From contig JAMPER010000007.1 in the NCBI GenBank assembly GCA_023664945.1, positions 1 through 48,217 of the forward strand: a DNA stretch of 48,217 bases, in the 5' to 3' direction. This document shows positions 1,091 to 3,667 of this stretch, one piece after another. The first letter of the stretch is position 1. Each line of letters starts with the position of its first letter. This DNA is from Alistipes senegalensis. GTDB lineage: Bacteria; Pseudomonadota; Gammaproteobacteria; Burkholderiales; Burkholderiaceae_D. The translations under genes were made by a program, and so were the position numbers. A model generated the notes under the pieces. The model made no database searches. It was not told the DNA's origin and saw only the letters and a list, made by a program, of their open reading frames with translations.

Positions 1091-1579
1091 TCAGGCTTTG
1101 TCCGGTTCTTCGAGCCTGTCAAAGGCAAAGCTGATTTCTTCGGCAAATTTATCAAGGAATCCGGTTTTTGCAATTTCCTGCCGGGCGGTGGCAAATTCCC
1201 GGGCATGAAGTGTGTGCCTTATTTTTTCAAGTTGTTGAAAGAGCTGTTGGCGCAGGCGTTTATCCAATTCTTCCAGCTTATCCAGCCTTTTTTCCAGGAG
1301 GGCTTCGTCCAGCTGATTGCGCCAGGTGATTTGTTCCATCAAAAATTCAGGCGGCAAAGACAGGGTTGTGCCGGTTTTGGGCGGGAAGCCGTTGAGGCTG
1401 CAAAGGCAGGCTGCCCGTTTGAGCGGCTGGCGCAGCGTTTGGTAGGCTTCGTCAACCAGGGCGGCGGGTTGTGCAGGGCAGGGGTGTTCCCGGTATTTTT
1501 TGTAAGCTTTTTCAAGCGCTGCCCTGTTAAGGTCAAATTGTTCCGGCAAGCCGAAGAGGGAAAAGGGGCTGGTTATCAC
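1091..1579 (-). CDS. hscB: HscB-like co-chaperone with degenerate J-domain
   Basis: HscB normally delivers IscU to the Hsp70 HscA and stimulates its ATPase through a J-domain HPD motif. This 162-residue protein keeps the HscB frame: SLFGLP near the N-terminus, EAYQTLRQPLKRAACLCSLNG at the end of the J-domain, and the C-terminal helical IscU-binding domain (FLMEQ onwards). The J-domain appears about 14 residues shorter than in E. coli HscB, and the HPD position reads HPC (residues 32-34). The frame is open throughout, so this is not a simple frameshift. The start is GTG, 15 nt after iscU, with no clear Shine-Dalgarno. No hscA or fdx follows, although hscB-hscA-fdx is the usual order; the next gene is the convergent smpB. 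Family call firm, chaperone function doubtful. Confidence 0.85.
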   Translation of the reverse strand: MITSPFSLFGLPEQFDLNRAALEKAYKKYREHPCPAQPAALVDEAYQTLRQPLKRAACLCSLNGFPPKTGTTLSLPPEFLMEQITWRNQLDEALLEKRLDKLEELDKRLRQQLFQQLEKIRHTLHAREFATARQEIAKTGFLDKFAEEISFAFDRLEEPDKA

Positions 1580-1594: not shown

Positions 1595-1987
1595 TTATTT
1601 TTCCTTGCCATGATGCTGCCGGTAATCGGCGATGGCGGCTTTTAAGGCGTCTTCTGCCAGGATGGCGCAATGGATTTTTGCGGCAGGCAGGGCAAGTTCG
1701 CGGGCAATTTCCGTAGTGGTGAGGGCAAGGGCTTCTTCCAGGGTTTTGCCGGTTATCCATTCTGCTGCCAGTGAGCTGGAAGCGATGGCTGCCGGGCAGC
1801 CATAGGTTTTGAAGCGGGCTTCTTCTATTTTTCCCTGGGGGGTGACCTGGATTTGCAGGCGGGTGACTTGTCCGATTTCGGGGGAACCTGCTGTGCCGGT
1901 ACCCACGCAGGGGGTGCTTTTATCAAAAGCGCCGGCGTGGCGCGGGTTTTCAAAGTGATCCTGTATTTTTTCCGAATAGGTTGTCAT
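1595..1987 (-). CDS. iscU: IscU-like Fe-S scaffold with altered ligand set
   Basis: IscU is the scaffold on which IscS-derived sulfur and iron form [2Fe-2S] clusters. The 130-residue protein aligns without gaps to E. coli IscU through the core ([52 protein letters not shown]). Two of the three ligand cysteines are present (C64 and C107). The first, E. coli Cys37, is Ile38 here, and the neighbouring Asp39 is Gln40. The HscA recognition motif LPPVK reads LPAAK (about 100-104). A new cysteine, C27, lies eleven residues before the lost one. The start codon overlaps the iscS stop by 4 nt (ATGA), which suggests translational coupling. The family is clear; scaffold function by the standard mechanism is not. 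Confidence 0.9.
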
Positions 1988-3228
1988 GCGCGGCTTTCTG
2001 TGCGTTTTGCTTTATATTCATCCCACAGGGGGGAAAGTTCGCGCAGGCGGGCAATCTGGGTTGCCAGCAGACTGACGGCGTAATCAATATCGGCTTCTGT
2101 TGTAAAACGGCCCATGGTAAAGCGGATTGAGCTGTGTGCCAGTTCGGGGTTCCGCCCGATGGCTCGCAGGACATGGGAGGGTTCACGGGTTGCCGAGGTG
2201 CAGGCCGAGCCGGAAGAGACGGCGATGCCTTTTAGCGCCATCATGAGCGCTTCGCCCTGGATATAGGGGAAGCTGGCATTGATGTTGTGGGGAATGCGCT
2301 GCGTCATATCGCCGTTAAAGAGGATGGCCTCTATACCGGCCAGCCCGGCGGCAAGACGGGCTGCCAGTTTGCGGATGCAGGCGATTTCCGTTGTCATTTC
2401 CTGGCGGGCAATGCGGAAGGCTTCGCCCATGCCGACCAGCTGATGGGTTGCCAGCGTCCCGGAACGCAGGCCTTGTTCATGGCCGCCGCCGTGCATTTGG
2501 GTTATCAGGCGTGCCTTTGGTTTACGCCGGACAAAAAGGGCGCCGATGCCTTTGGGGCCATAGACTTTGTGTGCCGTGATGGTAAGCAGGTCTATTGGGA
2601 CTTGTTGAAGGTTGATTTCCAGCTTGCCTGCTGCCTGTGCGGCGTCACAATGAAAGAGGATGCCGCTTTCCCGGCAGCATTCGGCAATTTCAGCTATGGG
2701 CTGGATAACGCCGATTTCATTGTTGACCCACATGACGGAGACGAGGATGGTATCCGGACGGATGGCTTGCTCGAGCTGCGCCAGGGTAATCAGGCCGTTT
2801 TCTCCGGGTGTGAGGATGGTGGTTTCAAATCCCTGGTTTTGCAGGGATTGTACGGTATCCAGTACGGCTTTATGTTCGGTGGCAACGGTAATGATGTGCC
2901 TGCCGCGATCCTTATAAGCCTGGGCTGCGCCTTTTATTGCCAGGTTGTTGCTTTCTGTCGCGCCGGATGTCCAGATGATTTCGTTGGGGCTGGCTTCGAT
3001 GAGCGCCGCGACATGGGCGCGTGCTGTTTCTACTGCCTGTGCGGCTTCCCAGCCATAGGCGTGGCTGCTGGAGGCGGCGTTGCCGAAATGATCACAGAGC
3101 CAGGGGATCATTTTTTCGGCTACGCGTGGATCAACTGGCGTGGTGGCGGCATAATCCAGATAGACAGGATGCCCTGTCTGCCGGGTTCTGCCTGGCAGAC
3201 AGACTGTTTTTTGTGCCGGTATGCTCAT
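1984..3228 (-). CDS. iscS: Cysteine desulfurase IscS
   Basis: This PLP enzyme converts cysteine to alanine and supplies persulfide sulfur for Fe-S clusters, tRNA thiolation and molybdopterin. The product has 414 residues; E. coli IscS has 404. It shows [18 protein letters not shown], the PLP lysine in [15 protein letters not shown], the [14 protein letters not shown] segment, and the mobile catalytic loop SSGSACTSA (Cys about 343). The N-terminus carries about 18 extra residues before YLDYAATTP. The C-terminus ends soon after LSPLWDEYK, so the conserved tail of group I IscS (ending IEWAHH in E. coli), which takes part in IscU docking, is absent. It sits between erpA and iscU rather than after iscR. 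The upstream gap is 85 bp, with a weak Shine-Dalgarno. Confidence 0.93.
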
Positions 3229-3313: not shown

Positions 3314-3667
3314 TCAGGCACAGGAGGAGCCGCAGCTACAGCCGCAGGTGCTGGTTACGTTCGGGTTTTTGATGACAAATTGTGCGCCATGCTCGTCTTC
3401 ACGGTAATCAATTTCCGCGCCAGCCAGGTATTGGTAGCTAACGGGGTCAATCAATAATTGCACGCCGTTTTTTGTCATGGTGGCATCGTCTTCATTGACG
3501 GTTTCATCAAAGGTGAACCCGTACTGGAAACCGGCGCAGCCGCCGCCCTGGATAAATACGCGAAGTTTGAGGGCAGGGTTGCCTTCTTCAGCGATCAGCT
3601 CGGCGACTTTTTTTGCCGCGCTGTCAGTGAAGTTAATGGGCGCCGGCATGTCAATGGCTGCATTCAT
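3314..3667 (-). CDS. erpA: A-type Fe-S carrier ErpA with Cys-rich tail
   Basis: ErpA is an A-type carrier that passes [4Fe-4S] clusters to client enzymes. The 117-residue protein has the core [21 protein letters not shown] and the ending [22 protein letters not shown]. coli ErpA has three ligand cysteines, in GGGC and CGC near the end. Here the C-terminal segment holds four cysteines instead of two, as if a CS unit had been added, with a further Cys as penultimate residue. A good Shine-Dalgarno (GGAG) precedes the ATG. Placement next to argC and near rplM-rpsI is the usual betaproteobacterial position of erpA, which favours ErpA over IscA. It is the only A-type carrier in the window. Confidence 0.92.

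Follow-up and report, generated by a model that had tools for sequence, protein, structure and literature searches.

The isc locus and the altered IscU

The window, by which we mean the whole stretch of DNA that was analysed (48,217 nucleotides), is contig 14 of a genome (G000) of the gut bacterium Oxalobacter that has 1.93 Mb and is 99.94% complete. It carries an isc cluster in the order erpA-iscS-iscU*-hscB*, followed by a putative smpB ORF (this assignment, like those of sucA and zupT as neighbours, is our assumption), and all window features given below with coordinates lie on the minus strand. In the congener G093 the order is erpA-iscR-iscS-iscU-iscA-hscB-hscA-fdx. The gene erpA (3314..3667) encodes the sole A-type carrier found in G000, and iscS (1984..3228) a cysteine desulfurase with its active-site Cys loop kept. 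In the tail of IscS, 13 canonical residues ending QWAxH are replaced by 8 unrelated ones, and the C-terminal helix that docks IscU is kept, if the residue numbering by which we place this helix is correct.

The gene iscU* (1595..1987) has the isc-operon position directly after iscS, in the same iscS-iscU order as its canonical counterparts, and encodes an IscU orthologue of 130 aa without Cys37 and Asp39. The Pfam domain NifU_N is clearly present (147.4 bits, cut-off 22), the NCBIfam IscU model TIGR01999 gives 162 and 155.8 bits and thus stays below its curated cut-off of 192.4, and the SufU model TIGR01994 reaches only 49.7 bits with a cut-off of 92.5. Identity is 60.2% to one E. coli iscU record, aligned over residues 1-123 in a single equal-length piece, and 60-65% to the canonical IscU of Oxalobacter. 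In E. coli numbering, which we take to apply to IscU* with an offset of +1, the codons of Ile38-Gly39-Gln40 (1868..1876) fill the columns of Cys37-Gly38-Asp39, with Ile38 (1874-1876) in the Cys37 and Gln40 (1868-1870) in the Asp39 column of a segment that reads GSPEIGQV. This is what the first-pass annotation had claimed, and it is confirmed by 70 of 70 loci outside the altered clade, all with Cys37 and Asp39 (54 distinct sequences of the same taxonomic family, a count that leaves out 5 loci that are copies from the two altered genomes and in which some genomes occur twice). A ligand that normally does not vary has thus really been lost, in G000 as well as in a second Oxalobacter genome, G006. 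Also the statement that the other two cluster cysteines are kept holds for both genomes: Cys63 (Cys64 of IscU*, codon 1796..1798) and Cys106, together with His105 (codons of His106-Cys107, 1667..1672), are intact. As a new ligand, Cys27 (codon 1907..1909) had been proposed, but this residue is Arg in G006, which is why it is not a common replacement; of a clade sharing both the Ile/Gln change and Cys27, only the Ile/Gln part exists. Residue 36 of the loop is Glu in G000 and Ala in G006, so that the loop has no common new ligand either.

A smaller alignment of 34 distinct canonical IscU sequences from 50 loci has 90 invariant columns, 64 of which are kept in both G000 and G006, whereas 20 are changed in both (one being the start-Met column) and 6 in one of them. 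Kept in both are Cys63, His105, Cys106, Gly38, Val40, Lys59-Cys63 and Lys103; altered are, besides Cys37 and Asp39, Gly64 (Pro), Tyr11 (Phe), and Pro101 and Val102 of the LPPVK motif, presumably the HscA recognition site, which by column comparison with canonical IscU is replaced by LPAAK (1676..1690). The Lys42 column holds Arg, and the N-terminal Tyr (Tyr3) is present in G000 and is Leu in G006.

Downstream, hscB* (1091..1579) encodes an HscB orthologue with the C-terminal domain kept (HSCB_C 49.5 bits, cut-off 22.1; TIGR00714 52.2 bits, cut-off 46.75). Its HPD motif is lost, and about 14 residues are missing around it: within this gap, common to both genomes, the alignment places His-Pro-Cys (codons 1478..1486) in the column of His-Pro-Asp in G000, and QPN in G006.

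Occurrence of the altered IscU

In a search of 195 family genomes, 191 of which had a match, the IscU of G006 was found to be 85% identical to the IscU* of the window, with a loop (GTTAIGQV) that has the identical Ile and Gln and other neighbouring residues. The same exchange in a second assembly speaks against the sequencing error that had been considered earlier. Around the isc locus, the two assemblies share 94.3% identity over a length of 11.9 kb; both are drafts, of 16 and about 40 contigs, and the altered clade is represented by these two genomes only. The window and contig G006:C36 (48,236) are nearly equal in size, which suggests the same repeat-bounded break in the two assemblies. A scan of the genome contigs for further IscU without Cys37, made with the alignment of the two sequences, found only the G006 locus; its patterns are specific, and distant cases could escape them. 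Eleven genomes of the genus were available besides G000 and G006, and canonical IscU is present in all nine congeners read (G147 was left out); G191, of the same genus and 62% complete, gave no IscU match. Outside the genus, no IscU match at E 0.001 was obtained in G068, G090 (both of genus g41) and G134, of which G068 and G090 have Fdx; as G041, of the same genus as G068 and G090, has canonical IscU, the gaps in the three genomes possibly come from assembly. A publication on an altered IscU in Oxalobacter was not found in the open-access literature, which was covered partly by title only.

A second, canonical iscU had been named as something to look for. No intact copy was found in G000 or G006 by protein and Pfam searches of their own genomes, of which G000 is the 99.94%-complete one; these searches gave, besides iscU*, only a decayed nifU-nifS remnant and a chance-level stretch. 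A weak second Pfam match that might have been a canonical IscU turned out to be this remnant, which lies beside sucA in both genomes, has several stops, and retains a Cys in the Cys37 position (L004/L051, G000:C8:802442-802675; L090, G006:C11:631786-632137). The suspicion of a decaying paralogue thus falls on a different, nifU-like gene, and iscU* itself is intact. In the seven other congeners of the survey described below, NifU_N besides iscU gave only a 17-bit match in G180, and we infer that another scaffold arrived and then was lost in this lineage.

Reduction of the ISC system

ISC and SUF components were surveyed genome-wide in nine Oxalobacter genomes, namely G000, G006 and seven congeners. 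HscA scores over its cut-off in all seven congeners and in neither G000 nor G006. In G000, the protein that the HscA search matches best is a DnaK by its score of 916 bits, which exceeds the cut-off of the DnaK model. HscA under another name was considered for G000 and rejected, the best matches being DnaK and an 831-aa Hsp70-like protein, far below the HscA cut-off. The latter (L002 125-2620, G000:C11) is a divergent protein with an ATPase half and a long unusual C-terminal part. Fdx is present in all seven congeners (partial in G180), and also in all three genomes of another genus in the same search, whereas the genome-wide search found none in G000 and G006. For IscR, matches of 194-200 bits, none of them at the model cut-off of 207.55, occur only in the seven congeners, and G000 and G006 have only a paralogue of about 111-117 bits. 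A second A-type carrier (IscA) was found in six of the seven congeners and in neither G000 nor G006. The dismantling of ISC together with the loss of scaffold ligands is therefore solid for these two draft genomes. The role of an ordinary scaffold is very unlikely for IscU*, which is changed at two of the five site residues and in the usual HscA motif, in genomes where neither HscA nor Fdx was found; that it works as a two-Cys protein or has a non-scaffold role, as the first-pass annotation had suggested, is possible.

An SMS system in the same genomes

Matches to SUFBD_core were obtained in two of the nine Oxalobacter genomes, and these are exactly G000 and G006, the ones with the altered IscU; there is no match in the seven congeners. 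A full SUF system was not found in any of the nine, only the SmsCB type. The smsC-smsB locus (L048 7334-8985) comprises two genes in one operon. They encode an ABC ATPase, in which the usual motifs were recognised by eye, and a SufB-like protein of 306 aa, and the closest PDB structures are MJ0035/MJ0034 of the Methanocaldococcus SMS system. The NCBIfam SmsB model NF052511, which is of the model type "exception", gives 50.1 bits with a cut-off of 650. SmsC has a single Cys in its C-terminal region and no Cys trio, as is the case in two aligned clostridial relatives; according to the accessible part of PMC12192291, the number of C-terminal Cys in SmsC varies from 0 to 5.

In a plasmid collection, 43 records matched, four of them with at least 80% coverage. 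Three of these are full-length matches from Clostridia (Vescimonas 52%, Clostridioides 48%, Monoglobus 46%), the fourth is a Salmonella record with 25%, and a Sulfuricella record has 34% over 65% of the length. For two of these records the neighbourhood was inspected: the ATPase-SufB pair recurs there, and their incomplete gene tables list no IscU. At E 1e-4, SmsB has matches in 18 of the 195 family genomes, and the whole protein is matched only in G000 and G006; the other 16 match only its C-terminal 115-131 or so residues at 25-28% identity and are taken for SufB/SufD. Among 398 Pseudomonadota genomes, the window's own genome is the only one among the matches listed at E 1e-15, in which G006 does not appear. 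This pattern of presence, together with the clostridial matches, fits a horizontal gain of smsCB, possibly from a clostridial-type source, and the change of iscU apparently came later than this arrival from unrelated gut bacteria. A stretch of 10.7 kb that includes smsCB (L048 7225-17970 versus L049) is 99.5% identical between G000 and G006, and the isc genes, in bins of 300 bases, are 86-93% identical; the high identity of the smsCB stretch may reflect either a recent exchange or a strong constraint.

Selection and phylogeny

Between G000 and G006, dN/dS amounts to 0.31 for iscU*, 0.26 for hscB*, 0.12 for iscS, 0.015 for erpA and 0.05 for argC, and iscU* ranks first in this value among the 15 genes of the window that were compared, ahead of a zupT-like gene (0.29) and hscB*. 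Constraint is looser than on iscS (p 0.015 for iscU*, p 0.027 for hscB*), and since both ratios are above that of iscS and near the top of the 15 genes, a slow decay is possible. Against this, synonymous changes are in significant excess (Fisher p 2e-4 for iscU* and 1.4e-5 for hscB*, from rounded counts), and both frames are intact and stop-free in both genomes at a synonymous divergence of about 0.26. In a neutral simulation with 0.26 substitutions per site, which covers substitutions only, the frame stayed stop-free in 7.8% (iscU*) and 3.5% (hscB*) of the runs.

The stem branches of the two genomes are 0.53 for iscU (tips at most 0.17), 0.83 for hscB (other tips to 0.70), 0.36 for iscS and 0.13 for erpA. 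The iscS, hscB and erpA trees group G000 and G006 with G093 (support 0.97-1.0), whereas in the iscU tree, with its very long IscU* branch, there is no grouping with the G093 neighbours.

Possible functions of IscU*

The explanation that accounts best for these data, with a probability of about 0.45 as far as this can be judged from sequences, is that ISC has been mostly dismantled, that cluster building has moved to a horizontally acquired SmsCB, and that IscU* has been kept as a partner of IscS, as sulfur acceptor or regulator. De novo cluster building would then be carried out by SmsC and SmsB, the ATPase and the SufB-like protein whose genes lie at another place in the genome, and the isc operon would have been reduced to iscS-iscU*-hscB*. 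IscU* would dock on IscS via its conserved contact residues and accept persulfide on Cys63/Cys106 and/or set the release of sulfur by IscS, and the stem of HscB* may be a further modulator of IscS.

The accessible text of PMC2854127 gives Tyr3, Tyr11, Gly38, Val40, Lys42, Lys59-Gly64 and Lys103 as contacts of IscU to IscS, and it has single Cys mutants of IscU still accepting sulfur, with Cys37 as the proposed first acceptor. Binding of IscU alters the activity of IscS and competes with TusA (PMC11302665, in part), and a TusA-family protein is present in the genome. HscB attaches to IscS mostly through the C-terminal stem, with the J-domain signals unshifted, and it slows desulfuration (PMC5037179, as far as its text is accessible). 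As contacts are kept and IscU and HscB have such effects on IscS, IscU* could still dock, take persulfide and regulate IscS, and its retention is supported by the intact frames, the significant purifying selection and the kept contacts. What speaks against a partner of IscS is that precisely the proposed first sulfur acceptor is lost, and that among the contacts Gly64 is changed to Pro and Tyr11 to Phe, and Tyr3 is lost in G006.

An E. coli strain that lacks ISC and SUF can be rescued by SMS if oxygen is absent and sulfide is supplied (available part of PMC12192291), which is why SmsCB could be the scaffold of this anaerobe, and it has likely replaced ISC as the working scaffold in this Oxalobacter clade. 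This role should not be generalised too readily, since SufBC is dispensable in Methanosarcina acetivorans (PMC10500019, partial text). Further points against the proposed explanation are that smsCB is not linked to iscS-iscU*, that SmsC lacks the Cys trio that holds a cluster in M. jannaschii, that the iscU tree does not reproduce the grouping with G093, and that there are only two draft genomes.

A serious rival is the possibility that SmsCB took over and left iscU* and hscB* with little or no function, still read because of their place behind iscS, and in slow decay. Such a relic would agree with the relaxed selection relative to iscS, the long iscU and hscB stem branches, the missing partners HscA, Fdx, IscA and isc-type IscR, and the loss of the J-domain loop of HscB* and of the IscS tail. 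It agrees less well with two genes that are intact in both genomes at such synonymous divergence and under significant purifying selection, although part of this signal could predate the loss of function, and likewise with the 64 of 90 invariant columns kept and with the nifU-nifS remnant, which in the same genomes has accumulated several stops, unlike iscU* and hscB*. We lean towards the repurposed IscS partner rather than the slow relic.

It is rather unlikely that things went further, in that ISC was exchanged for a clostridial-type SMS and IscS-IscU*-HscB* became a dedicated sulfur relay or regulator that feeds SmsCB or other sulfur pathways; if this were true, nature would have separated the sulfur-accepting role of IscU from its scaffold role.

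A rewired scaffold would build clusters on Cys63, Cys106 and His105, perhaps with an external ligand such as glutathione or a Cys of IscS, and without HscA and Fdx. The three residues are indeed kept, and what is accessible of PMC4243993 describes the zinc coordination of IscU as plastic and the cluster as stabilised by an exchange of Asp39 to Ala. The same text, however, calls the three Cys of IscU absolutely conserved, and the N-terminal Tyr that is needed for [2Fe-2S] formation (PMC8617193, in part) is Leu in G006. With no common new ligand in the loop (Glu36 versus Ala36, Cys27 in G000 only), Fdx and HscA not found, and another scaffold candidate present, such a rewiring is improbable.

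Slightly less probable still is a hybrid pathway, in which IscU* would pass sulfur from IscS to SmsCB as SufE or SufU do for SufBCD. The occurrence of the altered IscU and SmsCB in exactly the same two of nine genomes and the kept sulfur-accepting Cys would suit such a transfer, but SMS can use sulfide (PMC12192291, as above), iscU* is unlinked to smsCB, and the SufU score of IscU* is poor. An artefact, or a canonical iscU copy elsewhere in the genome, might be suspected in drafts of 16 and about 40 contigs, but is next to excluded by the identical Ile/Gln in two assemblies that differ as much as these, by the own-genome searches and by the lack of ISC partners in both.

Relation to known systems

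IscU* is like the IscU described by TIGR01999 in its fold family, length and place after iscS, and in Cys63, His105, Cys106 and most contacts to IscS; it differs by the lack of Cys37 and Asp39, by LPAAK for LPPVK, by a score below the curated cut-off, and by a genome in which HscA, Fdx, IscA and isc-type IscR are not detected. With SufU and SufE it would share the proposed job of a cysteine desulfurase partner without a scaffold role, but it has no SufU-type score, and no full suf operon was found. SufU keeps a Cys in the Cys37 column.

This is a living lineage without Cys37, Asp39 and the chaperone/ferredoxin arm, but with a minimal two-gene system, and the genus, with near relatives as controls, shows how a proteobacterium can dismantle ISC. 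It makes testable whether SMS alone sustains a proteobacterium and whether IscU has a non-scaffold job, the altered IscU being a natural test of roles beyond cluster building.

The smsCB pair resembles the SMS systems of M. jannaschii (MJ0035/MJ0034) and Clostridia as a two-gene operon of a SufC-like ATPase and a SufB-like protein, but here it is found in a betaproteobacterium, with an SmsC whose C-terminal part holds one Cys, as in the two clostridial relatives. The fused SufCB of Pygsuia, Blastocystis and Stygiella is likewise a foreign minimal SUF in anaerobes, and for Pygsuia the accessible part of PMC6857552 reports that no ISC expression was seen. Those cases differ by eukaryotic hosts, an archaeal donor and a fused gene, whereas Oxalobacter retains iscS-iscU*-hscB*.
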